The notes under the pieces are model-generated. The model made no database searches and was not told the origin of the DNA. It was given only the letters and a program-made list of their open reading frames with translations. Position numbers and translations under genes: made by a program. A stretch of 64,000 bases of DNA from Vampirovibrionales bacterium. GTDB taxonomy: Bacteria; Cyanobacteriota; Vampirovibrionia; Vampirovibrionales; Vampirovibrionaceae. Below, piece by piece: positions 20,341 through 36,008 of the stretch (the first letter of the stretch is position 1; every line of letters starts with the position of its first letter). The stretch lies in assembly GCA_029866025.1 (NCBI GenBank), contig JARXAD010000003.1, positions 124,001 through 188,000 on the forward strand, read 5' to 3'.

Positions 20341-22962
20341 TCAACCTATTGCCATAGGATCTAACACATGTAGATTGATCCAACCATTCTCAACCAGTCG
20401 CTTAACCGATGGGGTTTTATCAATAATCCGTTGAACTCTCTCTTTAGGGGCTTCAATACAGACAAGCAATCGCTGGGGTAAATGATACGGGGTACCATCA
20501 TTACTAAACAGTGACTCATAGGGCAGGCCCACTTGCAAATCGCTTCGATTGCCCTGATAGACTCCTAAAAGGCTCACAACGTTATGGGTGTATTTTTTAC
20601 CGCTACCAAACCGTTGTTGGTCTAAGGTGGAAAAGAGGTATTGGAGGTTGATCCATGCTCCCACCACCATAGGGGCTGACATAATTAAGGATAAAATCGA
20701 TTCATCTTCATCTTTTGTCCAGTCGTAAGAGTGTAAAAAGCACCGACCTTCCAAGTTCAACGTTTTCGTCCAATCGCGTTGGCCAATAATAAAGGCCTGA
20801 TTTTGAGACAGTCCCCACTCTGGACGCGTTTGAGACCAGTCATAGGCTGACATGTTGCCGCCATGGTGATGAGATTGATGATGTAATACGTTAGGCTTTG
20901 ATATCAATTGATGTTGATACAGACGAGACGCCTCTTGGAAAGACTCCTTGATGGATTGCCACACAGAATGGTCCTGAGGGCGAATAACTGACTCGTTAAG
21001 AAAAATAACGTCTTGGGTAGTGGTGTTATGCTCTGCGGCTATAAAATACGTTCTATCCGGTATTTCAAGGGATTCCTTCAGCTTACTCCGCACATCTGCT
21101 TCGTTAAGCCACTGGCACAGTACCGAGGCGTTGTACCCACCACCATTGGCTCCACAGGCACCACAATCTAATGAGGACTTGTAGGGGTTATTTTTGGTTT
21201 GAGCGGCATGCCCTGTAATGATAACAAAAGGGGCTAGAGGGAAACGAAGGCCCATCAGTGGAATAATGGAAGCTACCAAGCCAGCCTTCTCCTCTGAAGT
21301 CAAATCGATTGACAATTGAACATCACTAGAATGCTGGTTACAGGGTTGGGTGGTGTAGGTTGTTCCCATTTTAGATTGAAGCGCTGCTTTTATTGCTTCA
21401 TAGGCCTTACCAAACCATGAGCCAACAAAGGAATCTCGCACCATGGTAAGACCATGGATCACCCCCAACGCTTCCACATAACCAAAAGTTGCAAACAAGT
21501 CGCGCCTGATTTTTTTAAATGCATAAATCCACTGTTGGCGATAAAGGGACGCTTTCCGAACGGCTCTAGAAAGCAGAGGTGACGGCATATTGCTTGCTAC
21601 AGATTCTTGAACCGAATAGGAGGGCGATAAAAGAATGGGACATAAAGGCAGTGACTCTAAGTCTCCATAATGCTTTCCTTCGATTGCCAAGCCAAAAAAG
21701 CCAGCAAAGCCATAGGTCTCAATCGCAGCAACCGATTCTAGTATTCGACGATAGGGCTCTGAACGAACATCAATGCAAAACACAGCCTGTGCTTTGGGCA
21801 AAAGAGATGCCTCTACTGAAAGACTCGATGTATACGCATTGGTTAAAGCCTGTAGCAGAGGCGTTTGTTGATGAACCTCTAAAGCACGAATGAGAATGGC
21901 AACACAATCCAGTAATGTGACGGTGTTAAAATATCCTTGCCACTGTTGGGGTGAATGCTGAAAGGAATAAACAAAGTCTGGATTACCTTGAGAAATCCAC
22001 TGTAAGCGCTGTGTAAATGTTTTATTAATCTCAGTCGATGGAGGGTTAGCGTTTTGATAAAATCCGCTTTGCTTAATGGCGACGGTGTACAATAATCGCA
22101 CGGTTAAGTAATCATAGATGGCATTTCCGTATTCTGGGCTGGCTTCTTGTTGATACTTGAGATACCCAACCCACCCTGGAAGTGATTGGCACTCCTCATT
22201 AATGATCCACTCATAGTTGTTATGAGGCACAGAAAGCGCTTGGAGTAGTTTTTCAAGGCGATTCAAAGGCTGTAACAAGTTTAACCCTAGAGTAATAGTT
22301 GTCTTTTTTAAAAATATTTGCAACTCTTTTGGAGCCTGAGAGTCATACTGTATTATATTTTGCCAAGCGTCATAAAAAGAAGTGTTTGAAGACCGAGGCA
22401 TCTTCCACACCGCTTGACCATTATCCCAGTAAGTAGCTAACCACTTTACAAGTTGTTCATCCACCCAGCATGATTGGGACGTTGACAGTAATTTCAATGG
22501 AATTATGGCTTCTTTATCAAAAGTCTGCTTAAATACACCCTCTAAAATAATATTTTCAGACATCTCTTCTGTTAAGAAAGTTTTTAATTCTTGAGACAAA
22601 GCAGCTTGATAGGTAAAGGTTTTTGTTGCAATCGATAAGCTCTGATCCAATACGCCATTCTTAAACGGATACTGATCAATGGCTTCGACAACGTTGTTCC
22701 AACTAAATTGTTGCCGACGGTACAAATCTTTAAAAAGAAATAATGAATCTTCTAAGTGGTGCCTTAATAGAGGTTTGCTTTGCTTTAAGGCCTCCACAAA
22801 GGAGCGATCTTCAAAACCAACTAAGGGATTACAGGCATTGACGGTATGCAGAGGCCATACTTTCCCGTAAATATTCAAAACCTTATCAATTGAGTTCTTA
22901 ATCGAATCCATATTACTATCTTGTGTTACGAAGTCAACTTGTTTGGTTGCGGTGGAGGGCAT
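20341..22962 (-). CDS. dabA: DabA (DUF2309), inorganic carbon transporter subunit
   Basis: 873 residues from the ATG at 22962, which has AAGGA six bases upstream. DabA is the zinc-containing, carbonic-anhydrase-like subunit of the DAB dissolved inorganic carbon pump and works with the membrane subunit DabB. The zinc-site motifs are visible: VFCIDVRSEPYRRILE near residue 395 (Cys and Asp ligands) and the later pair TGHAAQTKNNP...LDCGACGANGGGYNA near 590-610 (His and Cys ligands). The PLVGFEDRSF start is also typical. It is the third gene of a lysR-dabB-dabA set, 47 bp after dabB. It looks intact and full length. Confidence 0.93.
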   Translation of the reverse strand: MPSTATKQVDFVTQDSNMDSIKNSIDKVLNIYGKVWPLHTVNACNPLVGFEDRSFVEALKQSKPLLRHHLEDSLFLFKDLYRRQQFSWNNVVEAIDQYPFKNGVLDQSLSIATKTFTYQAALSQELKTFLTEEMSENIILEGVFKQTFDKEAIIPLKLLSTSQSCWVDEQLVKWLATYWDNGQAVWKMPRSSNTSFYDAWQNIIQYDSQAPKELQIFLKKTTITLGLNLLQPLNRLEKLLQALSVPHNNYEWIINEECQSLPGWVGYLKYQQEASPEYGNAIYDYLTVRLLYTVAIKQSGFYQNANPPSTEINKTFTQRLQWISQGNPDFVYSFQHSPQQWQGYFNTVTLLDCVAILIRALEVHQQTPLLQALTNAYTSSLSVEASLLPKAQAVFCIDVRSEPYRRILESVAAIETYGFAGFFGLAIEGKHYGDLESLPLCPILLSPSYSVQESVASNMPSPLLSRAVRKASLYRQQWIYAFKKIRRDLFATFGYVEALGVIHGLTMVRDSFVGSWFGKAYEAIKAALQSKMGTTYTTQPCNQHSSDVQLSIDLTSEEKAGLVASIIPLMGLRFPLAPFVIITGHAAQTKNNPYKSSLDCGACGANGGGYNASVLCQWLNEADVRSKLKESLEIPDRTYFIAAEHNTTTQDVIFLNESVIRPQDHSVWQSIKESFQEASRLYQHQLISKPNVLHHQSHHHGGNMSAYDWSQTRPEWGLSQNQAFIIGQRDWTKTLNLEGRCFLHSYDWTKDEDESILSLIMSAPMVVGAWINLQYLFSTLDQQRFGSGKKYTHNVVSLLGVYQGNRSDLQVGLPYESLFSNDGTPYHLPQRLLVCIEAPKERVQRIIDKTPSVKRLVENGWINLHVLDPMAIG

Positions 22963-23009
22963 ACGCAATCCTTTATAAAAAATGATAAACAGTCGTTAAA
23001 CTAGTTGTA

Positions 23010-24572
23010 CTATGTTTGTATTGCTTGGCGATGAGAAAACGTTGTCATGAAATTTGTTGGAGTAACATGGTCATCACTTGCGTTTAAGAAAAACAGATAC
23101 AATCGCTGAACGATAGCTTGTGGAACCGGAAGCAAACCAACCATTACTAAAAAAATAAATCCACTAAATACACTCACGATGATGGCGACTCCTGTTGTAA
23201 ATAAGGAGTTGTTAAACAAATACATTCGATTCCACGCTTGAAGGTAGTGCTCAGCAAATCCCTCGTACAAGGTGTAGCCACTTAACAAAGCAAAGCCAAA
23301 TAAGCCACTCAAAACAATGCTAAAGAGCGAGACGCCTTTGCTTTTTTGGAGAGTAAGGCCACTAAATACCACAGACAGTACCAGCATTACCCCAAGCAAT
23401 GGGTTTAAATGTTCTAAGCTATGGCTAAGAGGTAAAAAGCACTGGCCCAGAGAAAAAGCGATTCCTGTTGAGGCAATCACTCCGGCCAGAAGAGACCAAC
23501 GGTATGAAACTGCATTACAGGTTTCATTCTGGGCGAGGGTTACGTTTCGAATATAGCGACGGTGTTCAATAACACTCCCCGACGCTAAGAAAAATCGGGC
23601 CTTGAACAACCCATGAACAATTAAGTGGCCAATGGCTAAATGAAAAGCCCCTAAGCCACACTCCAATATCATAAATCCCATTTGCCCAATGGTGGAAAAG
23701 GTTAAATAGCGTTTAACATCGTTTTGCACCAGCATCGCAGCACTGCCAAATACAGCGGATATTAGTCCCAGAATGACCAAGCCATTCATTACCCAAGGTT
23801 GTGTTATCAATACGGTTGATATTTTGGCAAATAATATAGCCCCAGCATTAACAAAACCCGCATGCATAATGGCCGAAACAGGGGTTGGAGCCGTCAGTGT
23901 GTTGGGTAGCCAACGATGAAAGGGAAGAATGGCTGTTTTAGTCATCACTCCTATTACTAAGGCAATAATAGACGCGATAAGCATAGGAGATTCGACAGGC
24001 GAATTACTAATCCACAGAGAGAGATACGGTGTATGATAGCTGTACGTTAGCCCTGCCAACCCACTTAGTAGAAGTAGATCGCCGAGTAGAAAGGTATTAA
24101 GTGCCATTTTTGATGACTGAATGGCCGAAGAAATTTGGGTGTGGCGAATAAGCAGAACCAATACCCACCCCGATAAAATCCATGATACTGACAAAAGGGC
24201 CACGTGGTTAGCTGTGACAAACAACAATAAGCCAGCCATTAATAATTTGATTTTGAGGAAAAATTCACCATAATGAGAGTCCGTTTGAAGGTAATTGTAT
24301 GAAAAACGCTTGACTAAGACCCCCATAAACAAAATATAAGGGACCAATACTGCCTGCAACGTGGTTATTTGAAGGTAGCTTGCACTCGATGAAGGGTGAG
24401 TCTTTAGAAAATAACTAAACGAAAAAGCGATGCCAAGAAGAAAGGCTATCCAAGAAGAGGCTTCGCTCCAAGTTCGGCAAAGCCCTTTAGAACACCTGCC
24501 TTTGATAATGAGCAAGCCTAATGCGCTAAGCAGCATCGTCGTCATAGCCAGTAGCAAAAATAAATCGGTCAT
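23010..24572 (-). CDS. dabB: DabB, NADH-dehydrogenase-subunit-5-like membrane protein
   Basis: 520 residues from the ATG at 24572 (GGAG nine bases upstream); the frame is open to a GTG at 24626. Many membrane helices with the proton-translocating antiporter core: KTAILPFHRWLPNTLTAPTP, SAIMHAGFVNAGAILFAK and the VKRYLTFSTIGQMGFM and GHLIVHGLFKARFFL segments, carrying the Lys and His residues shared with NuoL. Shorter than NuoL, without its long C-terminal lateral helix, as expected of DabB. It couples a cation gradient to CO2/bicarbonate uptake together with DabA, encoded immediately downstream. Confidence 0.92.
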   Translation of the reverse strand: MTDLFLLLAMTTMLLSALGLLIIKGRCSKGLCRTWSEASSWIAFLLGIAFSFSYFLKTHPSSSASYLQITTLQAVLVPYILFMGVLVKRFSYNYLQTDSHYGEFFLKIKLLMAGLLLFVTANHVALLSVSWILSGWVLVLLIRHTQISSAIQSSKMALNTFLLGDLLLLSGLAGLTYSYHTPYLSLWISNSPVESPMLIASIIALVIGVMTKTAILPFHRWLPNTLTAPTPVSAIMHAGFVNAGAILFAKISTVLITQPWVMNGLVILGLISAVFGSAAMLVQNDVKRYLTFSTIGQMGFMILECGLGAFHLAIGHLIVHGLFKARFFLASGSVIEHRRYIRNVTLAQNETCNAVSYRWSLLAGVIASTGIAFSLGQCFLPLSHSLEHLNPLLGVMLVLSVVFSGLTLQKSKGVSLFSIVLSGLFGFALLSGYTLYEGFAEHYLQAWNRMYLFNNSLFTTGVAIIVSVFSGFIFLVMVGLLPVPQAIVQRLYLFFLNASDDHVTPTNFMTTFSHRQAIQT

Positions 24573-24675
24573 AAAAACGGGCTCCATTGAGCATTCAATT
24601 TTATCCACAATGTAAGTATCGGCCACAAAGACAAATAAGTAAAATTAATAAATATAATTAGAAGTATAATGCAAT

Positions 24676-25566
24676 CTAATGAATTGTGTGTTCTAAAGCC
24701 TCTTCGATAAATTGTTGAAAGGCTGCAATAACAGGGGGTTGATTTTCTTTGGCTAGCAAACTAATTTCGCTCATTCCCAGTGCGGGTAGGCCATTAGGCG
24801 TTGAGGAAGTTGAATGGCTTAAGTCGATTGGGACACTGGTTAGTGGCTGGACGGACACCCCTAACCCTCCCCTTACGGCAGCTAAACTTCCTGCAAGACT
24901 AGGGCTTGTAAACACGTGTTCGTATTGATATTGATGTTTCTCTAGCAATTTTACAGCATGAGCACGATAGACACAGGGCTCAGGAGACAGTACTAAAGAA
25001 ATCGAACGCTCATTAATCGCTTCTTGTAAGGGATATTCGGGCGAGTGCACCCAAACTAAAGGTTCTTCCCACAATTTATGAGTATGGGCTAAACGACGTT
25101 TTCGGTTGGTCTTGGCAATTACCAAATCAAAATTACCCTGTTCAAACCCTTCTAAAAGTGGAACGGTAAGCTGACAGCGAACGTCTAAGTGGACATTGGG
25201 ATAAATTTTACTAAAGCGACTAAGAATGGAAGGAAGGTACGTGGTTGTAAAATCTTCTGGGGCTCCAAAGCGTATACGACCACTCAATCGAGTTTGATTG
25301 AGTTCGCTAATTACCAGCTCATGTTGAAGCAAAAGCTGTTGCGCTTTAATCAACAAGACATCTCCTTGGGGGGTTAATTTAATGTCTCGCTTGGTTCGAT
25401 GAATGAGAGACGTCCCTAAAGTTTTCTCCAGCTTTTGAATCTGCTGGGACACTGCCGACTGGCTAAGGCCTACTATGTCAGCAGTTTTGGTAAACTGGCC
25501 GCACTGAGCCAGCACGATAAAGGTGTTGAGGAGAGTAGGGTCAAGATATCTCATAAGTCCATCCAT
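24676..25566 (-). CDS. LysR-family transcriptional regulator of the dab operon
   Basis: 296 residues. The N-terminal winged helix-turn-helix is FIVLAQCGQFTKTADIVGLS...SAVSQQIQKLEKTLGTSLIH. The rest is the LysR effector-binding domain (PBP2-like), starting at RIRFGAPEDF. It lies 49-104 bp upstream of dabB on the same strand, so it may head the operon. LysR-type regulators commonly control carbon-fixation and DIC-uptake genes, so a carbon-responsive role is a fair inference. The start may be ATG 25551 rather than 25566. The 293 bp upstream hold no gene I can support. Confidence 0.88.
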   Translation of the reverse strand: MDGLMRYLDPTLLNTFIVLAQCGQFTKTADIVGLSQSAVSQQIQKLEKTLGTSLIHRTKRDIKLTPQGDVLLIKAQQLLLQHELVISELNQTRLSGRIRFGAPEDFTTTYLPSILSRFSKIYPNVHLDVRCQLTVPLLEGFEQGNFDLVIAKTNRKRRLAHTHKLWEEPLVWVHSPEYPLQEAINERSISLVLSPEPCVYRAHAVKLLEKHQYQYEHVFTSPSLAGSLAAVRGGLGVSVQPLTSVPIDLSHSTSSTPNGLPALGMSEISLLAKENQPPVIAAFQQFIEEALEHTIH

Positions 25567-25859: not shown

Positions 25860-26612
25860 TTAAAACATAGCCTTAGACCAGGCTAATACATTAACCTGCT
25901 TAGAGAAATACATGGTAGCTTGACCGATAGCTGGGGGTAAGCCATGATCCATTAGCAGTGTATTGTGTAATATGTTAACATCGGCTGCTTGCAGCGGCCA
26001 AGGCTCATGGTGAATATCGCCCCAAATAAAGCTCCCATTGCTGGCAGGGCAAAAAAAGCACCAGCGAGAGGTGAGCCAGTCTTCTAGTGTGCCTGCTGTT
26101 GGAGTAAACACTGGCCCACTAGGGTTGTAGATGGCCCGAAATTCGCTATGAGCAACACCCGAATGAGTGCGCTTTGAGGTGAATAAAATATTGTTTGATG
26201 CAAGGTTAACCTGCATTGAGGCATTAAAATAGTTGAGCCTGAAAATTCCCCGAGCCATGGCTACCGAAAAAGCATCATCGGCATCCAGCGAATAAAAATA
26301 CACGCCAGGAATCCCATTAACCGTAACGTAGACGCGCACATTTAGTTCGTTAAAGCGAATAGGCCAAATGTTTTTCGGCAGGCCTCGCAACGTCATACAA
26401 AGCTGAAAAGGCACAATGCTAATCCACGCCTGGCCTTTAAAAGTATCGGGCTGCATACCCTTTGGCAAACACAATGCTAAAGCAGCGGGGTCCACTGGTA
26501 CGTTGTAAAAAAGTAGATTTTCCCAACGCTGGCGACTAAACCAAGGCCCCTTTGGTAATTTAACAGAGCGATGCGCTGTTTGGCTTAGTAAGCTATTGGG
26601 AGAATAGTCCAT
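25860..26612 (-). CDS. DUF2071 (YqjF-type) family protein
   Basis: 250 residues matching DUF2071: RQRWENLLFYNVPVDPAALA, LCLPKGMQPDTFKGQAWISI and the FNELNVRVYVTVNGIPGVYF block are characteristic. The family belongs to an acetoacetate-decarboxylase-like fold group and has no settled function. It starts directly after the stop codon of the upstream SDR (TAA-ATG), so the two are co-translated. Low GC, like the rest of this block. Confidence 0.85.
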   Translation of the reverse strand: MDYSPNSLLSQTAHRSVKLPKGPWFSRQRWENLLFYNVPVDPAALALCLPKGMQPDTFKGQAWISIVPFQLCMTLRGLPKNIWPIRFNELNVRVYVTVNGIPGVYFYSLDADDAFSVAMARGIFRLNYFNASMQVNLASNNILFTSKRTHSGVAHSEFRAIYNPSGPVFTPTAGTLEDWLTSRWCFFCPASNGSFIWGDIHHEPWPLQAADVNILHNTLLMDHGLPPAIGQATMYFSKQVNVLAWSKAMF

Positions 26613-27362
26613 TTATTGAGACACTTTTAAGGAGGCTAATCCGCCATCCACCCCAATAATTTGCCCTGTTACGTTGGACGTACTTAATAACCAGCCAATG
26701 GTTTGAGCCACCTGTTCAGGCGCAATAATTTGCCCCAGTGGGTGCATCGCTTCGCTGGCAGATCGGCTGGCCGGATTGCTTAGCAATTTAGCGGCCAAAG
26801 GAGTATCTACCAGCCCTGGTGCCACGCAATTAATGCGAATTCCTTTTTTTGCATAGGTAGCTGCGGCCGAAAGTGTAAGGCCAATCACGCCTGCTTTTGC
26901 CGCTGCAATGGCGTCGTGGTTAGGAAGTCCAATGCGGGCCGCTGCCGAACTCATCAGAACAATGGAGCCTCCGCCAGTGGGCATCATACTTTTACACGCC
27001 CCACGAACCACATTAAAGGCGCTGGTTAAATTTTGGAGAATCGTCGCGTCCCATTCTTCGGGCTTGGTGGTGTGGGCTGGTTTTAACAGTATGGAACCTA
27101 CTAAGTGAACCACGCTGCCAATAGCGCCATGAGTTTCGGTCAGCGTTTTAAACAGGATGCTTACCGCGTCCGCATCCGTGGCATCCACACTGTAGCACTG
27201 CGGCTGGCATGGAAACGTCTCCTTTAAGGAGTCGTAATTTCGCCCCGCTAACACCAAAGGCCACGTAGGGTGTAGAGAGTGTAGATGCTCTACCAAGGAT
27301 TTTCCAATGCCGCCACTAGCGCCAATAATTAAGCAGGATTTGGGTGTAGGGGGTGCTTCCAT
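26613..27362 (-). CDS. SDR-family protein lacking the catalytic tyrosine
   Basis: 249 residues. The Rossmann motif GASGGIGKSL, a VHLVGS segment in place of NNAG, and a Ser in VLMSSAAARIG are present. Where SDRs have YxxxK, this protein reads HDAIAAAKAG: Lys is kept but the Tyr position is Ile. The C-terminal QIIGVDGGLASL is normal. Either an altered catalytic mechanism or a non-catalytic role follows. It is the first gene of a two-gene unit with DUF2071 and is divergent from the flavoprotein gene at 27487 across 124 bp holding an inverted repeat. Confidence 0.85.
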   Translation of the reverse strand: MEAPPTPKSCLIIGASGGIGKSLVEHLHSLHPTWPLVLAGRNYDSLKETFPCQPQCYSVDATDADAVSILFKTLTETHGAIGSVVHLVGSILLKPAHTTKPEEWDATILQNLTSAFNVVRGACKSMMPTGGGSIVLMSSAAARIGLPNHDAIAAAKAGVIGLTLSAAATYAKKGIRINCVAPGLVDTPLAAKLLSNPASRSASEAMHPLGQIIAPEQVAQTIGWLLSTSNVTGQIIGVDGGLASLKVSQ

Positions 27363-27410
27363 TAAAAAGCTCCTTTTTAGAGAACACTATACAGTTCCAG
27401 ACAAAGGCTG

Positions 27411-27426
27411 TTTACCAAATGGTATA
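27411..27426. promoter_or_regulatory. Candidate operator, copy 1 (TTTACC-AAAT-GGTATA)
   Basis: A near-palindrome in the divergent promoter region between the SDR/DUF2071 unit and the flavoprotein unit. Its core TACCAAATGGTATAG matches the reverse complement of the inverted repeat at 33181-33196 (TACCCAATGGTATAG) with one difference. A possible -10 element (TATAAG) follows about 10 bp downstream toward the plus-strand gene. Confidence 0.5.
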
Positions 27427-27486
27427 GATGCTAGTATAAGTGAAAATCAGTATGATTTTTGGTCGCTGTTTGCCCGAAATGTTTAA

Positions 27487-28590
27487 TTGGCTTCAATTGA
27501 GAAAGATCGTTGTGTTGTGGTTATTTATCCTTCGTTTTTAACCCCAAAGCCGGTAACAGTAGCCATTGTGGGTGCCGGTATTGCAGGATTGCTTTTGGGC
27601 CAGCAATTACAAGATTTGGGTCATTCGGTCGTCTTACTAGATAAAGGTCGAAGCGTCGGTGGGCGACTCGCTACGCGTCGAGGCGTTCTTGATACCGAAG
27701 ACGACCTTAGCAAGGTTCAGATGCCCATTCGTTGGGATCATGGGGCTCAGTATTTCTCGGCCCACAGTTTAGCTTTTCAACAAATAGTGACTACATGGCA
27801 GACCCAAGGCTGGATTAAGGAATGGGAGGAGGTTTCAATACCCAATCACCCTCGTTGGATAGCTAACGATGGTATGTCAGCGTTATGTAAGCACTTAGCA
27901 ACCCCTTTAACGGTTTTTTGCAACCAGCAGGTAACCGTTTTAAGCTACCAGCAAGGTTTATGGACCTTGCAAACGGATTCAAATCAATCCTTGCAGGCAC
28001 ATCATGTGGTGCTAACAGCCCCCACCCCACAAGTGCTGAATTTACTGCAGCAAAGTGACTTAGCCTTAACCGACCATCAAAACATGGTGTTGCAATCCAT
28101 TCAGTATTCACCTTGTTTGGCAATGCTAGGCTTAGTTTCTAATAAATCATTTTTACCCAGTAGCCTAGCCGAAGGTTTTTTACGGCTAAATGACCATCCT
28201 AGTATTAGTTGGATGGCCAATAATACGGCTAAAGGTATTTCTAATGCAGCGTCCCAATCGTTAACAATTCATGCTACAGCAGCGTGGTCTCAACAGCATT
28301 GGGATGATTCGGACGTTGCTATTCTATCTAGCCTTACAAAGGAATTAGCCCCTTTTATTACAAGAGAAACTTGGCAACAAACACAACTTAAACGCTGGAA
28401 ATACGCCTTGGTTACTCAGGCTGCTAGCGAAGCGTTTACCTCATTAACGACACATCCTAATTTATGGGCGGCCGGCGATGGCTTTGTGTCCGGTAAGGTA
28501 GAAGGCTCCGTGTCATCGATTTTAGCGCTTAGCAAAACATTAGGTAAAGAATTAAACAGTGCTTTATCAAAAGGGCCTTTAACGCTATGA
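27487..28590 (+). CDS. Renalase-like NAD(P)/FAD-dependent oxidoreductase
   Basis: About 360 residues. The dinucleotide-binding motif VAIVGAGIAGLLLGQQLQDL, then VVLLDKGRSVGGRLATRR and RWDHGAQYFSAHS are diagnostic of the bacterial renalase-like flavoprotein family (COG3380 type). The C-terminal NLWAAGDGFVSGKVEGSVSS is the second FAD contact. The substrate is unknown; related genes often sit in light or oxidative-stress regulons. The start is uncertain: TTG at 27487 or GTG at 27517, neither with a clear ribosome binding site. Its stop overlaps the start of the DUF429 gene (ATGA). Confidence 0.87.
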   Translation: MASIEKDRCVVVIYPSFLTPKPVTVAIVGAGIAGLLLGQQLQDLGHSVVLLDKGRSVGGRLATRRGVLDTEDDLSKVQMPIRWDHGAQYFSAHSLAFQQIVTTWQTQGWIKEWEEVSIPNHPRWIANDGMSALCKHLATPLTVFCNQQVTVLSYQQGLWTLQTDSNQSLQAHHVVLTAPTPQVLNLLQQSDLALTDHQNMVLQSIQYSPCLAMLGLVSNKSFLPSSLAEGFLRLNDHPSISWMANNTAKGISNAASQSLTIHATAAWSQQHWDDSDVAILSSLTKELAPFITRETWQQTQLKRWKYALVTQAASEAFTSLTTHPNLWAAGDGFVSGKVEGSVSSILALSKTLGKELNSALSKGPLTL

Positions 28591-29525
28591 GCGCTCTTTT
28601 AGCTACTGCCGAAAGCCAACTGTGGGGCATTGATTTTACCAGTGCCCCTTGCAAGAAAAAGCCCATTGTTTCAGCCAAAGCGTCGCTATTTGATGGGGAT
28701 TTATCTATTAACGATATTTGCTACTGGCAAAGTCTTACTGACTTTCAGGAGTTTTTAAGTCAAACGTCTCAGCCTCCTTGGCTAGCTTCTGTAGATATTC
28801 CCTTGGGCATGCCCACCCAATTTTTAGAGGATTTACAGTGGCCTACCAGTAGTTGGCACGCATGTTTAATGGCCATTAAAGCGTTGCCGAAGCCTCAATT
28901 TAAAGAGACGATGGCTACGTTTCAGGCGGAACAACCCACAGGAAAAAAACAACCCAAGCGCTTGTGTGATGCTTTAGCCAAGGCGCAAAGCCCTACCAAG
29001 TTGCATTATATTCCTACCGCCTTAATGCTATACGAAGGAGCCACGCGTATTGCTACTGCCTCTAATGTTTCGGTGTGGCCGTGCCGAGTGATTGAGACCA
29101 GCAATCAACGTTTAGTAGAAGCCTATCCGGCCTTAGTATTGCGTTCGATTTCGGCACAACATCAAAAAAAGTTAAGGCCTTATAAATCAGATACCCAGAA
29201 ATCCGATACCAAGCCAAGCGACGATCATAAATGCGAGCGAGAATGGCTGGTTAACCAGCTCACATCTCCCGGTATAAAAAGTAGTTACGGCGTTTCTCTC
29301 ACGTGCTCAAATACAATAAAACAAGCCATGATTGAGGATGCCACTGGAGATACCTTGGATTCGGTAGCCTGTTGTATTCAAGCGGCTTGGGCGTATCATC
29401 ATTGGGAAAAACTGTCTCATTATTTTCCAAACGCTTCTTCGGTTGAAGGTTGGATTGTAGATCCCACTCTTATCTCTCCTCCTGTTTCCACACCGTCCCC
29501 TAAACATAAAGAGACATATTTATGA
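28587..29525 (+). CDS. DUF429 family protein (predicted RNase H-like fold)
   Basis: 312 residues. The opening LWGIDFTSAPCKKKPIVSAK, the ASVDIPLGMP segment and a later YEGATRIA motif match DUF429, whose conserved acidic residues suggest an RNase H-like nuclease fold. The function is not established. The start overlaps the previous gene's stop (ATGA) and its own stop overlaps the next gene's ATG by 4 bp, so it is locked into a translationally coupled operon. Confidence 0.83.
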   Translation: MSALLATAESQLWGIDFTSAPCKKKPIVSAKASLFDGDLSINDICYWQSLTDFQEFLSQTSQPPWLASVDIPLGMPTQFLEDLQWPTSSWHACLMAIKALPKPQFKETMATFQAEQPTGKKQPKRLCDALAKAQSPTKLHYIPTALMLYEGATRIATASNVSVWPCRVIETSNQRLVEAYPALVLRSISAQHQKKLRPYKSDTQKSDTKPSDDHKCEREWLVNQLTSPGIKSSYGVSLTCSNTIKQAMIEDATGDTLDSVACCIQAAWAYHHWEKLSHYFPNASSVEGWIVDPTLISPPVSTPSPKHKETYL

Positions 29526-30475
29526 ACGTAGCAACTAAAAAATTTCCAGCCTGGATGACCTATACCTTATTGGCCGCCGCACTTTACAATGGTTTGTTCG
29601 GCGCGTGGACGGTTTTATTTCCCAACCATTTGTTTGCGCTAAACCACATTGCGTTGCCTAATTACCCCGAATTGTGGCAATGCGTTGGGATGATTGTGGG
29701 GGTATATGGGCTGGGTTATTTTATAGCGGCTTTTAATCCATTGCGCCACTGGCCTATTGTTTTAGTGGGATTATTGGGCAAAATCTTTGGCCCCATTGGC
29801 TTTGCTAAAGCTCTCTGGGTAGGATCTTTCCCTTTATCTTTTGGGGCCATTATTATTACCAATGATTTAATTTGGTGGGTACCTTTTTTTATTATTTTAA
29901 AAAAGACCTATACTGAATGGCTTTCTAATGACGTTTTAGATCCATCGTTATTAGATAGCGTTTTAGAAAACATTCAAACCTCTAAAGAAGAGAACTTGGC
30001 AAAGTTATCTCAAAATAATCCAACCCTCGTAGTGTTACTACGCCATAAAGGGTGTACTTTTTGTAGAGAGGCCTTAGCCTATTTGGCAGCGATCCGTTCA
30101 CAATTAGAGAGCTTAGGCGTTACTCCTGTTATTGTCCATCAATCGGAACCGATTGTGGGGCAAAGTTTTTTAGAAGACTACGCCTTGGGCGACTGGCATC
30201 ATATTAGCGACCCTGATCAACTATTGTACAGGGCATTGGGTTTGCAACGCGGGACCCTTGGACAATTATTTGGTCTGCAAGTATTTAAACGAGGATGGGA
30301 AGCAGGCGTGTGTCAAAGTCACGGTATTGGCTCCTTAGACGGTGATGGTTTTCAGATGCCAGGACTGGTGTTGCTTCACAACAGTCAGGTGGTCTATCGT
30401 TACGACTTTAAGGATGCTTCCGACAGACCTGACTACATTGCCTTTGTTAAAGCTGGCTTGTTAAAAAGCTCCTAA
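29522..30475 (+). CDS. Membrane domain fused to an AhpC/TSA2-type thioredoxin-fold domain
   Basis: 317 residues. Residues 10-130 contain about four membrane helices (WMTYTLLAAALYNGLFGAWT through DLIWWVPFFIILKK). Residues 155-310 resemble the peroxiredoxin-like AhpC-TSA_2 group: LVVLLRHKGCTFCREALAYL with a CxxC pair, then a long insert and MPGLVLLHNSQVVYRYDF. The CxxC would lie just after the last helix, on one face of the membrane. A soluble relative of this domain is common; the N-terminal membrane fusion is unusual. Coupled to DUF429 by a 4-bp overlap and followed 10 bp later by another membrane-thioredoxin-fold fusion. Confidence 0.8.
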   Translation: MNVATKKFPAWMTYTLLAAALYNGLFGAWTVLFPNHLFALNHIALPNYPELWQCVGMIVGVYGLGYFIAAFNPLRHWPIVLVGLLGKIFGPIGFAKALWVGSFPLSFGAIIITNDLIWWVPFFIILKKTYTEWLSNDVLDPSLLDSVLENIQTSKEENLAKLSQNNPTLVVLLRHKGCTFCREALAYLAAIRSQLESLGVTPVIVHQSEPIVGQSFLEDYALGDWHHISDPDQLLYRALGLQRGTLGQLFGLQVFKRGWEAGVCQSHGIGSLDGDGFQMPGLVLLHNSQVVYRYDFKDASDRPDYIAFVKAGLLKSS

Positions 30476-30485
30476 GGAATAACGT

Positions 30486-31457
30486 ATGAATTTTTTATCG
30501 ACCCATTGGATTTTATCCTTACATTTAGCTTCTCTGGCTGTAATGACAGGCGTTATTATTTACGTTCAAGTGGTGCATTACCCTTTGTTTGCCTTAGTCG
30601 GTAACGAGGCGTTTCTTGATTACCATCATGCTCACGCACGCCTAACCACATGGGTGGTTGCTCCAGCGATGGGTATTGAGTTGATAACCGCCTTAATTTT
30701 GTATGTTCTTCGTCCTCCAGATATTTCTATAGTATCGTTAGGCTTTAACTTGGCCTTAGTTGCAGTTGCTTGGCTAAGCACCGCTTTTATTCAGGTACCT
30801 CTTCATAATCAGCTAGAAATAGTAGCAGTAGAAAACAGATTGTTGTTGATTAATACACTAGTAGCCACCAATTGGATACGAACGATTGTCTGGAGCTTGC
30901 GTGGGCTGGGTTGGACAATGTGGTTGACGTCGACCTTTAAAAGAAATCTTCTTTTTTTAACCTTATTAACCCTAAGTTTTTTCTTTTTAGCCGAAGCGAG
31001 TGTGCCCACTTGGGCCACCCCCATTGCTAATAACTCTAAAGAGTGGCCCTGGAATAATCTACAATCTTTAGCTGAAAAACCATGTCCATATCGATTAGGC
31101 TTAAAAAAACAACCAACGATTATTTTAGTCAGCTTTCACCCGAAAGAACAAAAAATTGTGAATACATGGCTGGATGCTTTGGAAAGCAAAACACCTGTCA
31201 TTGAAGTGCCCGTATTAGAGCCACGGTGGTTAAAAGTTCGTGCCCAAGCCACGGGTTTTATGAAAAGCCAAGTCAACAAAAAATATCACGAGTTTGTGTG
31301 CCCCTTGTATCAGCCCCATGCTGTTGTGACAAATCAACTAAAACTCCCCAAAAATCCAAGTGGTGTTTATGTGTTTTTGGCAGATTCATCGGGTAAAATA
31401 CTTTCGGAAGATCGGGGCATTTATTCACCTGAAAAATTGAAACAATTACTGCGTTAA
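30486..31457 (+). CDS. Four-helix membrane protein fused to a thioredoxin-like (possibly ATP10/DUF4174-like) domain
   Basis: 323 residues. Residues 5-140 form about four membrane helices with a conserved-looking HHAHARLTTWVVAPAMGIEL loop. A further hydrophobic stretch near 155-170 leads to a soluble domain (about 205-323): TIILVSFHPKEQKIVNTWLD, VIEVPVLEPRWLK and GVYVFLADSSGKILSEDRGI. That order of strands looks thioredoxin-like and faintly like ATP10 or DUF4174, but no CxxC is present. I would not name it beyond that. Downstream partner of the previous fusion in the same operon. Confidence 0.75.
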   Translation: MNFLSTHWILSLHLASLAVMTGVIIYVQVVHYPLFALVGNEAFLDYHHAHARLTTWVVAPAMGIELITALILYVLRPPDISIVSLGFNLALVAVAWLSTAFIQVPLHNQLEIVAVENRLLLINTLVATNWIRTIVWSLRGLGWTMWLTSTFKRNLLFLTLLTLSFFFLAEASVPTWATPIANNSKEWPWNNLQSLAEKPCPYRLGLKKQPTIILVSFHPKEQKIVNTWLDALESKTPVIEVPVLEPRWLKVRAQATGFMKSQVNKKYHEFVCPLYQPHAVVTNQLKLPKNPSGVYVFLADSSGKILSEDRGIYSPEKLKQLLR

Positions 31458-31471
31458 TAAGGATATTGGAT

Positions 31472-32590
31472 ATGACTTACGCACAAGAGCGATTAAAATT
31501 AGGAATAACCACAGTGGGTTTTTGGGTTGTTATAGCAACGCTGTTATTAGTTTTCAATGTACCTGAGAAAATACCGTCTACCCTTTCTATTTCTCAGCTT
31601 TTAGCAGGGATTATTGGTAGCTATATTCTTTTGTCATTTCCCTTTGATGTTTGGGGTGGGTATGTGTTACCCAAAAAATTCAACCGTTCTTCGAAAGGAT
31701 TTTTCTACTGGCTTAAGAAGTGGGCCAAAGGATGTTTTTCTCAGGGAGTGATTTTGCTTACAAGCGGCTACGCTTTGTTTGCATGGTTTCATATTTTTGA
31801 TAGTTCGGCTCTTCGCCTCGCCTTTATTGTTGCCATTCAACTCATTTTTGCTTTATTTCAAAAACCTATTGCCTTCTGGACGGGCTCTTTTTCTTTAAAT
31901 TCTAGCTCCAATCACCCAAACAAATCCGTATGGAATAGCCAAGATATTGGTTTCACTGGAGGCGCTACCCTCATAGGGCAACTCATTTATCCTGCCCACT
32001 GGTTAACTCAATTTCCTCATAATGAATCATTATTATGGATAACCAAACGACGTGACGACTTAATAAAAAGCCTGTCCAACGGTATGGGATATTTTGTGGC
32101 CGTTGGTTTTAATACGTTAGGGGCAGCAATTGTTTTGGTGCTAGGCTCTTTAACCTTTGCTGCGCCAAGCGACTGGTTAACCTTTATATTAGGTACAACA
32201 TTATGGAGCTTTTTGGGCGTATTGGTGCTGCCAATGCTTAACCAAAAAGCTGTGTTGCACCTAGATCTATGTACGATTAGCTCACAGCCTCCCGCTTCAA
32301 TGGATGCGATAAAATCGGGCATTGTTACCTTAGATGCTTGGCAAGACGAAGAACCCAGCCGACACCCTTGGGTTCAGCGTATATTCCACCCCATTCCTTC
32401 AGTCACTCAACGATTGGGAGCCTTCCAGCAACCAAATAGTAAGCTTCATCAGACCAAAACTTACTATCCTTGGCATGTGGCTCGTAGAGCATTGTTTTTA
32501 TCGTGGCCGCTTATGGGGCTGTTAAACCGAGCCGTTCATTGTAACGTTGGCCGCCCCGACTTATGGGTGTTCTTACCCAGCGAAGGCTAA
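31472..32590 (+). CDS. Multi-pass membrane protein of unknown function
   Basis: 372 residues from ATG 31472 (AAGGA eleven bases upstream). About six membrane helices: residues 12-30, 42-60, 85-110, 115-135, then a loop of about 75 residues, and 210-255. The loop before the last pair is soluble and basic (WITKRRDDLIKSLSNG), and the C-terminal 110 residues are soluble. No family recognised. It is the last gene of the five-gene plus-strand unit starting at 27487. Confidence 0.75.
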   Translation: MTYAQERLKLGITTVGFWVVIATLLLVFNVPEKIPSTLSISQLLAGIIGSYILLSFPFDVWGGYVLPKKFNRSSKGFFYWLKKWAKGCFSQGVILLTSGYALFAWFHIFDSSALRLAFIVAIQLIFALFQKPIAFWTGSFSLNSSSNHPNKSVWNSQDIGFTGGATLIGQLIYPAHWLTQFPHNESLLWITKRRDDLIKSLSNGMGYFVAVGFNTLGAAIVLVLGSLTFAAPSDWLTFILGTTLWSFLGVLVLPMLNQKAVLHLDLCTISSQPPASMDAIKSGIVTLDAWQDEEPSRHPWVQRIFHPIPSVTQRLGAFQQPNSKLHQTKTYYPWHVARRALFLSWPLMGLLNRAVHCNVGRPDLWVFLPSEG

Positions 32591-32594
32591 AAGC

Positions 32595-32936
32595 CTAAAG
32601 CGATTTTTGGAGAACCGGAAGCGTTGTTAAGAATAACGCAATTTTTGGATCTTCAAATTTAGTAAAGCTCACAGTAGGCCCATTTTTAAACCCAACTTTA
32701 AAAGTGATACAGTACATTTGTGCCAATACAAAAACTTGTTTTAGCAGTACTTCTAAATATTCCCTTTTTGGCAAGTTTTTAACAAGTTTACCCATACCAA
32801 AAGCAGAATCTAGATAAATGGTAACCAAATTATCAGAGGCAATGATTTCCATTACTACGTCATCGCACGTTAAGATCAGATGGCCCTCTAAGCCGATGGG
32901 TAGCTTAGAGGCCAACTCTTCAAACGTATGAATCAT
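32595..32936 (-). CDS. Small hypothetical protein
   Basis: 113 residues, soluble, mixed alpha/beta composition (GLEGHLILTCDDVVMEIIAS; KREYLEVLLKQVFVLAQMYC). No known domain. Its ATG overlaps the stop codon of the 67-aa gene upstream as TAATG, so the two proteins are translated as a coupled pair and may interact. It ends only 4 bp from the converging membrane-protein gene. Confidence 0.7.
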   Translation of the reverse strand: MIHTFEELASKLPIGLEGHLILTCDDVVMEIIASDNLVTIYLDSAFGMGKLVKNLPKREYLEVLLKQVFVLAQMYCITFKVGFKNGPTVSFTKFEDPKIALFLTTLPVLQKSL

Positions 32937-33139
32937 TAAACTAAATCTTTAGTGCGCACACGCAGGGTACCATTTAGGCCCCATTTGGCTTGTTTAGAAT
33001 CATCGGCGGTGCTGCTGGGCACATGAATTTCCATATTAGAAAATTCATAGGTTATTTCGGCGTTTTTACCCGTTAGTTGTTCGTACAAACCAATGGCTAG
33101 TTCAGGCCACGTATGCGTTTCTTTTTTCTCTATCGTCAT
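32936..33139 (-). CDS. Very small hypothetical protein, partner of the 113-aa gene
   Basis: 67 residues from ATG 33139, chosen because GGAG lies ten bases upstream; the open frame extends to 33166. Sequence begins MTIEKKETHTWPELAIGLYE and is soluble with a short beta-rich end. No family recognised. It is read divergently from the DUF2867-type SDR gene, and the inverted repeat at 33181 lies 41 bp upstream of its start. Confidence 0.7.
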   Translation of the reverse strand: MTIEKKETHTWPELAIGLYEQLTGKNAEITYEFSNMEIHVPSSTADDSKQAKWGLNGTLRVRTKDLV

Positions 33140-33180
33140 TGGTATCATCTCCACAACAAAAAACAAAACTACTTCTTTAC

Positions 33181-33196
33181 TATACCATTGGGTATA
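33181..33196. promoter_or_regulatory. Candidate operator, copy 2 (TATACC-ATTG-GGTATA)
   Basis: A perfect 6-bp inverted repeat with a 4-bp spacer in the 152-bp divergent region between the small-gene pair and the DUF2867-type SDR. Its right arm runs into TATAAT, a good -10 element for the plus strand, so a bound protein would block or reshape that promoter. In reverse complement it matches the site at 27411-27426. Confidence 0.55.
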
Positions 33197-33291
33197 ATAA
33201 CGTCAAGCTCAATCACTACAATACCCTACACAGGCTGTATGCTGTTTGTCTTCTTTAATACATAAAGCAATTTTAGCAAAGGTATTTTTGT

Positions 33292-34785
33292 ATGAAACCC
33301 TATGTGTTAGTAACGGGGGCAACCGGCTATGTGGGAGGGCGGTTGGTTCCCAGATTATTGGCGAGCGGTTACAAAGTAAGGGCTGCAGCTCGTTCGCTTA
33401 AAAAATTACAGTCGCGGCCTTGGGCTACCGATGCCAACTTAGATTGTGTATACGCCGATTTTTTTGATCCCTATAGTTTGGATAAGGCTCTGGAAGGTTG
33501 TGATGCCGCCTACTATTTAGTGCATTCCATGGGACCAGAGCACGAAGACTTTAGTAAGGCGGATAAAGAGGCGGCTCAAAATTTTTTGGCCGCGGCAAAA
33601 AAAAATCACCTCAAGCAAATTATCTATTTAGGGGGCTTGGGTGAAAGTAACCCTTCTCTTAGTAAGCATTTGGCCTCAAGGGCCGAAGTTGGCAATATTT
33701 TGCGCCACGGTACCGTGCCGGTAACCACCTTGCGTGCCGCCATGATTATCGGTTCAGGCAGTGCTTCCTTTGAAATTCTTCGGTATTTAGTAGAGCGCCT
33801 ACCGATTATGATAACCCCGAAATGGGTGTTTACGGCAACTCAGCCTATTGCTATTAAAAATGTGATCCACTATTTAATTGGTTGCCTAGAATGCGAAGCA
33901 ACAAAAGGACATACCTTTGATATTGGTGGCCCTGATATTGTAAATTATCGCAATTTAATGGAAATTTACGCGGAAGAAGTAGGCTTGGCCAAGCGGCTTA
34001 TTATTCCGGTTCCTTTTTTTACGCCTAAATTAAGTTCGTATTGGATTCATTTTGTAACGCCGGTGGGTAAATCCATTGCTAGGCCCTTAACAGAAGGGCT
34101 TCGCAATGAAACTATTTGCAGAGAAAATCACATTCAAAAGCTCATTCCACAAACACTTATTTCATACCGAGAAGCCATTCACTTGGCTTTAGAGCGCTAC
34201 AGAAATCACGAAATTGAAACCCATTGGACAGACGCAGGTGTGTTGCCCCCCTTAGAAACTATTTATCCAGGCGATCCTTCGTGGTCGGGGGGTACTGTTT
34301 ATTTAGATTGCCGATCGATGGTGGTGGAAGGCAGTTTAAAAGAAGTATGGGGCCCTATTGTAGGCATTGGGGGTGAACATGGCTGGTATTATGGCAACGC
34401 CTTGTGGCAGTTAAGGGGCATTATGGATTTATTTTTTGGCGGCGTAGGCTTAAAACGGGGGCGCAGAGACCCAGATAAAGTAAATACAGGCGACGCCCTA
34501 GATTTTTGGCGAGTAGTGGATGTGGTGGACGAAAAACGATTATTTTTAAGGGCTGAAATGCGTTTACCCGGAGATGCTTATTTGGAATTCAAGCTAAAAC
34601 AGCTAAATAATAATCATGTAGAAGTCACTCAAACCGCACGTTTTGCGCCCAAAGGCTTATTGGGAATTCTTTATTGGTATGCCGTTACACCCCTGCATCA
34701 TTTTGTATTTAACGGTATGCTCAATGGTATTGCTAAGGCCGGTAAAATAGCGATTGTTATCCCTCCAACCGTCACGACTTTATAA
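33292..34785 (+). CDS. Atypical SDR with C-terminal DUF2867 domain
   Basis: 497 residues. An extended/atypical NAD(P)-binding domain opens with VLVTGATGYVGGRLVPRLLA and continues with YYLVHSMG and IIYLGGLGE. From about residue 330 a DUF2867 domain follows (YLDCRSMVVEGSLKEVWGPI, ending near ATMTGI-like LHHFVFNGMLNGIA). Proteins with this architecture are common and uncharacterised. It sits alone on the plus strand at the right edge of the redox block and shares the inverted repeat found at the left divergent promoter. Confidence 0.88.
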   Translation: MKPYVLVTGATGYVGGRLVPRLLASGYKVRAAARSLKKLQSRPWATDANLDCVYADFFDPYSLDKALEGCDAAYYLVHSMGPEHEDFSKADKEAAQNFLAAAKKNHLKQIIYLGGLGESNPSLSKHLASRAEVGNILRHGTVPVTTLRAAMIIGSGSASFEILRYLVERLPIMITPKWVFTATQPIAIKNVIHYLIGCLECEATKGHTFDIGGPDIVNYRNLMEIYAEEVGLAKRLIIPVPFFTPKLSSYWIHFVTPVGKSIARPLTEGLRNETICRENHIQKLIPQTLISYREAIHLALERYRNHEIETHWTDAGVLPPLETIYPGDPSWSGGTVYLDCRSMVVEGSLKEVWGPIVGIGGEHGWYYGNALWQLRGIMDLFFGGVGLKRGRRDPDKVNTGDALDFWRVVDVVDEKRLFLRAEMRLPGDAYLEFKLKQLNNNHVEVTQTARFAPKGLLGILYWYAVTPLHHFVFNGMLNGIAKAGKIAIVIPPTVTTL

Positions 34786-34819: not shown

Positions 34820-35115
34820 CTATCCCGTTAAATCTCGCAGGTTAATCAGTGCACAACCCAGTTTAAACAAGGCTTCGTAGTTTTTACTTTTGTACTCCCG
34901 CCTCACTACCAGCTTTCCAAACCCATCCAAAGAATTTCTCAATCAAATAGGGTTGCTTGTATAATAGGCCTTGGCGCCCACCTACGAACCTCCTTCTTCT
35001 GATTTCGCTTAGGAATTATCGGCGTTAATCCTCGGTTTTCCAAAAGGTGGACAGTGTTTGCCGAAGATTTTTAGAGTCATGCTCTAGATCGGGAGTGATA
35101 CAGCCAGACTTGGGG
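34820..35115 (-). pseudogene. IS5-like transposase remnant (C-terminal part)
   Basis: Reading the minus strand in three frames gives DLEHDSKNLRQTL (compare DKGYDSxxLRxxL of IS5 transposases), then ENRGLTPIIPKRNQKKEVRR (compare RGIxPVIPPRxNRK), then YLIEKFFGWVW, and finally KLVVRREYKSKNYEALFKLG before a stop at 34820. The order is right for an IS5-family DDE transposase, but frameshifts separate each piece and the N-terminal half is missing. No terminal inverted repeats were found. Confidence 0.7.
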
Positions 35116-35931
35116 AGGAGTGGTATAGTGTCACTGACTGCAACGTAGCCACTCTGGCCACTTGGAGCAATGGGGCCGACTTTAAGCGTCAGATCGTCTT
35201 GATTAACGAGAACGATAATTTTGCTTGTCTTGTGCTGTCAACCCTTATAACAGGCTCTGCTAATTTGGTCGCCCTTTTATTGCTACCAGCACGGTAACAT
35301 CCAAATGCAACAGGCCCAAAGATTCCACTTCGTCTCGCTTTAACCAGTGGAGTGACCGGTCAAAAAGCCGTCCTTCACCCAGTGTTAGAAGCGTCGGTGG
35401 GTGGTGGATTTAGGCACGAATCCAGGCAGATCCTGGATATTACACTGCTGGACACCGGTAATGATTATGAAACGAATGGTTCCAAAGCATTCCCGATCCC
35501 GTATTTTCGATCGTCCCACATCGTTTTGAAAGATGAAAAACTCAATCCGTTACCACAGAGAATCTTTTAACAGTTTGTATTGCATCTCACACCCTACGAA
35601 AACGAAGACACCCTTTATTTTACAGCACCATTACGGGATGGACTCTAATAATGTTGGCCCACTTATCAATATAAAATTTACAAAAGGCAAAGTCTTTGTT
35701 ATTAATATTACTTATGATTAACCATTCAAATACAACTTTTATCAAATAAAAACATCTTAATAAGGTGTTTTGCCTGATTAAGTCCTGAGCCACACCTAAA
35801 TTAATAATTCAATACCTTTAAGGTAAGAAAAGCTGCCTTTCAAATGTTAGAGAAACACATTATTTTACGTGTAATTTGCACTTACGTTGTTTTCTCTCAT
35901 CATTCCCTAGTTCCCAAAACCCTCTCTATAG
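35116..35931. other. Gene-free region between transposase remnant and tRNA-Pro
   Basis: Short open frames exist (for example 35352-35570, plus) but show no recognisable protein, no ribosome binding site and odd composition. It may be old mobile-element debris attached to the IS5-like remnant. The last 200 bp are very AT-rich. Confidence 0.5.
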
Positions 35932-36008
35932 TGGTCGGGATGACAGGATTTGAACCTGCGACCCCGTCGTCCCGAACGACGTGCGCTACCAAGCTGCGCT
36001 ACATCCCG
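35932..36008 (-). tRNA. tRNA-Pro (anticodon CGG)
   Basis: 77 nt on the minus strand, CCA encoded. Acceptor stem CGGGATG/CATCCCG, D arm with AGCGCAGCTTGGTAGCGC, anticodon loop TTCGGGA giving CGG, and T arm AGGTTCAAATCCT. It marks the right edge of the AT-rich accessory block. A degraded copy of its 5' part lies about 120 bp upstream of it. Confidence 0.95.

Follow-up and report, generated by a model that had tools for sequence, protein, structure and literature searches.

The RpoE targets of Rhodobacter sphaeroides include phrA, cfaS, RSP_1090/1091, a short-chain dehydrogenase/reductase (SDR), folE2 and a fasciclin gene (PMC7074977), while LitR of Pseudomonas targets phrB, an SDR, an FAD oxidoreductase, ufaM, cryB and folE (PMC9758184). 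UfaO, an enzyme of furan fatty acid synthesis, bears DUF1365 (PMC7380195). Here we describe a cluster of redox and membrane genes at positions 25860-34785 of a 64,000-nucleotide stretch (the window; contig JARXAD010000003.1 of assembly GCA_029866025.1) from a bacterium of the order Vampirovibrionales, a non-photosynthetic sister lineage of the cyanobacteria that preys on algae and hence lives next to chlorophyll. The window corresponds to C4:124001-188000 of the 2.19-Mb host genome (94% complete), and the comparison set within the order comprised 18 genomes, among them Vampirovibrio chlorellavorus NCIMB 11383 (G013) and two of Vampirovibrio sp. (G005 and G017). The cluster likely represents one locus of a dispersed regulon against photo-oxidative and lipid damage, repressed by a TetR-type protein through the operator TATACC-N4-GGTATA. 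Its ten open reading frames (ORFs; the initial annotation had counted nine genes) form four divergent units: an SDR and a DUF2071 gene (minus strand); a flavoprotein, DUF429, two fusions and a membrane protein (plus); a tiny gene pair (minus); and an NmrA/DUF2867 gene (plus).

Operator palindromes in the cluster and in the order

The initial annotation had called the cluster operator-linked. In agreement with this, two copies of a 16-bp palindrome, TATACC-N4-GGTATA (consensus TATACCAATCGGTATA), lie in its two divergent promoters:

27411..27426, no strand: operator 1, TTTACCAAATGGTATA, between the SDR and flavoprotein genes
33181..33196, no strand: operator 2, TATACCATTGGGTATA, between, and overlapping, the TTGACG and TATAGT hexamers that make up a promoter-like site of the tiny pair

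Motif statistics for the host genome were obtained by pattern search and inspection of individual sequence stretches. With up to one mismatch allowed, these are the only two copies in the window, where 0.08 are expected and none of 100 shuffles reached two, and both fall exactly within the divergent promoters (P ~6e-7). For the order, pattern searches were followed by inspection and classification of most copies, though not of every copy in G004, G007 and G011. In genomes that bear the TetR gene described below, the palindrome precedes photolyase-TetR, FAD oxidases, FolE2, fasciclin, the NmrA/DUF2867 SDR and the tiny pair, and also a lipid operon of desaturase, FAD oxidase, DUF1365 and CFA genes. 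This placement before the same gene families is kept across two families of the order, one of them that of the window. FolE2 sites occur in G013 to G017. Fasciclin has two operators in G009, and in G013, G014 and G017 the operators of the desaturase-CFA operon are doubled. Scoring with a position weight matrix derived from these sites picked up additional FolE2 sites in both G013 and G016, as well as a weak site at the host photolyase.

The share of copies that stand with regulon genes varies among the genomes. Such genes are found no more than 400 bp away from all four copies in V. chlorellavorus and from five of six in G014; classed with regulon genes were 5/9 in both G009 and G015, 3/6 in G017, 3/9 in G000, 2/5 in G016, 1/9 in G001 and 1/13 in G012. 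G010 has none at the N4 spacing, and a longer-spaced dyad is found there between a small membrane gene and the TetR gene. Since genome-wide totals of the palindrome are near those of a reversed-pattern control in several genomes, it could be argued that the neighbouring genes are unrelated and that the palindromes arose by chance or serve different regulators. However, the signal lies in position rather than in number: when only genes defined independently of the motif are counted, 23 of 73 copies in the TetR-bearing genomes and G017 are adjacent to them, versus 0.1 expected, and none of the 19 copies examined in TetR-less genomes stands beside regulon genes (Fisher P 0.002). Together with gene neighbourhoods that are conserved across phyla, this makes a chance origin highly improbable.

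Some further sites were seen in the host and its relatives. A 28-bp perfect palindrome, AGCATCTATATCATTTGGTATAGATGCT, precedes the host kdpFA genes (C7:103321-103336; L043:8322), and 19 of 20 bases (AGCATCTATAYCATTTGGTA) are the same as at the window site at 27411. An operator before the gene of an ABC transporter ATPase occurs in two genera (G012:C1:38406, L234, and the host at C9:224414, L044). An apparent site inside the host's CFA gene (L277:7220) is coding and was rejected.

The TetR candidate

The regulator is probably a TetR protein and not CarH/LitR or ChrR, as judged from gene and operator placement. Nine genomes carry a homologue with 36-46% identity to the G009 protein, and a tenth, G011, one with 23-27%. 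In six genomes of four genera (G001, G009, G010, G013, G014 and G016) the gene is in the same units as regulon genes, adjoining photolyase in G013, G014 and G016, NmrA/DUF2867 in G009, memTrxN in G010 and a TIGR01777 SDR in G001. As in TetR/AcrR systems, the regulator gene of the relatives lies in or near target units, and the palindrome is present at its own gene as well as at the targets. A profile search matched TetR/AcrR structures and pointed to no telling ligand. In the literature, which was covered in part, no paper was found that connects a TetR protein with a regulon of this kind, nor one that connects Vampirovibrio with photolyase.

The same data bear on a different reading, by which TetR would govern membrane-lipid homeostasis in the manner of DesT or FadR, sensing fatty acids or acyl compounds such as those of algal prey, with photolyase as a passenger. 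TetR stands beside a desaturase in G009, the doubled operators are those of the desaturase-CFA operon, the profile search matched fatty-acid regulators too (among many others), and DUF2071, SRPBCC and SDR proteins could have lipid substrates. Nevertheless, photolyase, FolE2 and fasciclin are non-lipid genes that bear the operator and match the singlet-oxygen regulon, and we consider lipid homeostasis as such an unlikely explanation.

The host TetR gene (C13:376085-376489; L096:6035-6475) is not linked to the cluster. A second host TetR gene (C13:442548), whose neighbours are genes for a nitroreductase and outer-membrane efflux, was dismissed as a candidate, since no site is nearby and its identity amounts to only 26% over 78 aa.

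Several observations weigh against a TetR-controlled photo-oxidative regulon. The FolE2, fasciclin, ABC and tiny-pair gene B members were recognised through the motif itself, and therefore their counts are not independent. Twelve copies in G012 and eight in G001 lie away from known members, and the operator at the host kdp (C7:103321) fits no theme. The host photolyase site scores 12.3 bits, versus 15.6-26.3 for the training sites, and no clear operator is present at the photolyase mega-operon of G013, G014 and G017. No operator is visible at the host's own lipid operon (C9:237-245 kb, L277), which is complete (desaturase-FAD oxidase-DUF1365-CFA-DUF1295-CFA2-DUF1475), and none is present at the host's own TetR gene. 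Finally, the reading frame of the host TetR gene is interrupted by an A6 run close to codon 132, with homology to the C-terminal domain continuing in another frame. This may be a real lesion or an assembly error; unless the latter applies, the interrupted regulator could leave the regulon constitutive in the host.

Genes of the cluster and their neighbourhoods

The ORFs are as follows, with memSelL denoting the family of gene 29522:

25860..26612, minus: DUF2071 protein (COG2071), acetoacetate-decarboxylase-like; PF09844, E 2.8e-60
26613..27362, minus: SDR without catalytic Tyr, classical SDR fold; PF13561, E 1.1e-47
27487..28590, plus: FAD/NAD(P) flavoprotein, labelled renalase-like; PF13450, E 2.4e-11, and PF01593, E 3.2e-9
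28587..29525, plus: DUF429 protein; PF04250, E 1.1e-5
29522..30475, plus: memSelL, a membrane domain with a SelL-related/AhpC-TSA_2 domain, CTFC motif; NF040769, E 2e-36
30486..31457, plus: fusion of a small membrane protein (N part, ~aa 1-150) and a secreted-type thioredoxin-fold domain (C part, from ~aa 166); no Pfam match
31472..32590, plus: membrane protein, rare; no Pfam match
32595..32936, minus: tiny pair gene B, 113 aa; diverged homologues adjoin pair gene A in G009, G013 and G014
32936..33139, minus: tiny pair gene A, 67 aa from the ATG at 33139 (ORF opens at 33166); orthologues 52-63% identical
33292..34785, plus: NmrA-type SDR with DUF2867; PF11066, E 1e-34

Four of the cluster proteins belong to no Pfam or NCBIfam family. 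The tight overlaps reported before are present, with ATGA at 28587-28590 and 29522-29525 and TAA-ATG at the SDR/DUF2071 junction (26613/26612), and the tiny genes overlap each other through TAATG at 32936. Coordinated control, as proposed from the overlaps, is further supported by the operator common to both divergent promoters.

On one strand, V. chlorellavorus and G014 both carry, in this order, SDR, SRPBCC, memSelL, flavoprotein, small membrane protein, DPRP photolyase-related, photolyase/cryptochrome and DUF2071 genes, the last being the orthologue of the window gene in V. chlorellavorus and its genus. G017 has this photolyase operon from SRPBCC onward, and the arrangement in G005 runs from a TIGR01777 SDR through memSelL, flavoprotein and FAD oxidase to the small membrane protein, with photolyase close by. 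In the surroundings of exactly 80 memSelL loci, chiefly of Verrucomicrobia, Planctomycetes and Acidobacteria, we found the small membrane protein (a stand-alone ~145-aa protein in relatives that corresponds to the N part of 30486) 33 times, the flavoprotein 14 times, an SDR 13 times and photolyases 11-13 times, while two control genes occurred once each. No recurrent regulator was found among the memSelL neighbours in other phyla, and a check for plasmid carriage of memSelL gave nothing of note. Thus the homologues are not scattered but co-occur widely. Because these counts exceed those of the control genes, the conserved co-occurrence expected for 29522, 30486 and 31472 holds for 29522 and for the N part of 30486; 31472 is rare, being present in one of 386 genomes of a phylum sample, and is not conserved there. 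Its sole homologue found (29-33% identical) belongs to a verrucomicrobial cluster (Chthoniobacteraceae, L142), where it lies beside memSelL and a photolyase-related gene; structure prediction of the membrane protein was uninformative (pLDDT 34).

The other genes show similar ties. In the SDR, HDAIAAAKAG replaces YxxxK, with Ser and Lys retained, and the Tyr is likewise missing from the orthologues of two relatives (L036 and L232), which bears out its earlier description as Tyr-less. The flavoprotein ORF is listed from a TTG, with an alternative GTG at 27517; its family matches are NAD_binding_8 and Amino_oxidase, and renalase-like is a label of the initial annotation only. Its orthologues (32-36%) adjoin memSelL in G005, G013, G014 and G017 and the SDR in G009. 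DUF429 orthologues (32-34%) are near the tiny pair and an operator in G013 and G014, and in G009, G013 and G014 the orthologues of pair gene A are preceded by an operator at a distance of 49-64 bp. The NmrA/DUF2867 orthologues (60-62%) adjoin TetR in G009, and FAD oxidase, operator or TetR-photolyase in G013, G014 and G016.

The memSelL protein reaches 125.1 bits with NF040769 (SelL-related; curated cut-off 120), and a profile search matched it to prostamide/PGF synthase (9us9, E 5e-7), which is a lipid-endoperoxide reductase. A function of memSelL as membrane lipid-peroxide reductase would fit this match. The C part of 30486, a stand-alone secreted-type gene in G009, G013, G014 and G017, has a thioredoxin-like predicted fold (pLDDT 72; Foldseek matches of ResA/TlpA/Etrx type, E ~1e-5, TM ~0.5), and a comparison of its cysteines among relatives revealed none that is conserved. 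This divides the membrane thiol/flavin stress system proposed earlier: the SelL-like domain has a CxxC, while the other thioredoxin-fold domain lacks a conserved cysteine, and the thiol part is half supported. A general regulon for peroxide/thiol or electrophile stress would agree with the CxxC domain, the flavoprotein, the SDRs and a peroxiredoxin divergent to TetR in G009. Given the fusion domain without conserved cysteines, the recurring photolyases, and that no catalase, thioredoxin reductase or glutathione genes were seen near the sites, we regard such a regulon as quite improbable.

On one side of the cluster, window positions 34830-35930 hold ~1.1 kb without convincing genes, perhaps decayed mobile DNA, before tRNA-Pro (35932-36008). 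Directly beside it on the other, 20341-25566 contains DabA/DabB-like inorganic-carbon pump genes (named by eye) and a LysR regulator, which is unusual in a predicted predator.

Comparison with known light and singlet-oxygen regulons

We infer a role in photo-oxidative and lipid damage as the best explanation, because the operator-bearing genes are of the same kinds as RpoE, LitR and furan fatty acid genes. TetR would bind the TATACC-N4-GGTATA sites and repress, and would be released once photo-oxidative damage to the membrane generates a ligand such as an aldehyde or an oxidised or otherwise altered fatty acyl compound. Derepressed photolyase would then repair DNA, with a pterin made via FolE2/PTPS; desaturase, FAD oxidase, DUF1365 and CFA proteins could remodel or protect acyl chains by furan-lipid chemistry like that of UfaD, UfaO and UfaM, and memSelL, the flavoprotein and the SDRs may reduce lipid peroxides at the membrane. 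More tentatively, TetR could be the master photo-oxidative regulator of the Vampirovibrionales that replaces σE-ChrR and LitR and is released by oxidised membrane lipid, perhaps the regulon's own furan or cyclopropane lipids, with memSelL as membrane lipid-(endo)peroxide reductase; this wider scheme is possible but doubtful.

The initial annotation had suggested a kinship to light or singlet-oxygen regulons, which is supported by the match of operator-marked genes to the σE-ChrR and LitR target lists and by the photolyases of the Vampirovibrio operon. Its statement that no photolyase is present holds for the window, while the genome has one at C2:209610 with a weak operator 39 bp upstream. The host genome has four MerR matches, none of them in the window; a 273-aa one, the sole one inspected, looks unlike CarH by eye. 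MerR/LitR was rejected as regulator, there being no MerR gene in the window and no LitR motif in the cluster promoters, and σE promoter control was likewise rejected, since TGATC-N18-CGTAT is unmatched in 25860-34785 at one mismatch. The initial annotation, which covers the window, lists no rpoE-chrR operon.

The σE-ChrR (ECF11) system of R. sphaeroides has the same kinds of targets, namely photolyase, CFA/DUF1365/FAD lipid genes, SDR, FolE2 and fasciclin (PMC7074977, PMC6852236, PMC7380195), and its core kinds (photolyase, CFA/DUF1365, SDR and FolE2) carry the common operator in the relatives. In contrast to σE-ChrR, the cluster has no σE motif and is probably controlled by TetR and the palindrome, and memSelL, flavoprotein, NmrA/DUF2867, tiny pair and DUF429 are additional members. 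Class II LitR of Pseudomonas (PplR/PmlR) shares phrB, SDR, FAD oxidoreductase, ufaM, cryB and folE as well as the repressor logic (PMC9758184). However, LitR is of the MerR type and binds TGTACA-N12-TGTACA, for which no match was found across the cluster with two mismatches allowed, and the TetR has no photosensor domain. As in the UfaM-UfaD-UfaO furan pathway, a CFA-type methyltransferase, an FAD oxidoreductase and DUF1365 (the UfaO domain) stand in one operon, to which a fatty acid desaturase, a second CFA-type enzyme, DUF1475-like and DUF1295 genes are added here. SelL-related/PRXL2 redox proteins (prostamide/PGF synthase) have the AhpC-TSA_2 domain with CxxC in common with memSelL, which differs in being bacterial and fused to a conserved membrane domain.

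By this comparison, a gene set that recurs in responses to light and singlet oxygen would have come under a third, unrelated type of regulator. The memSelL, small membrane protein, DUF2071, DUF429, DUF2867-SDR, Tyr-less SDR and tiny pair families would be united by one stress response with a defined operator, and their roles therefore become testable. We propose that the target gene set closely resembles known ones, while the regulator and the operator that we infer set this regulon apart from σE-ChrR and LitR.

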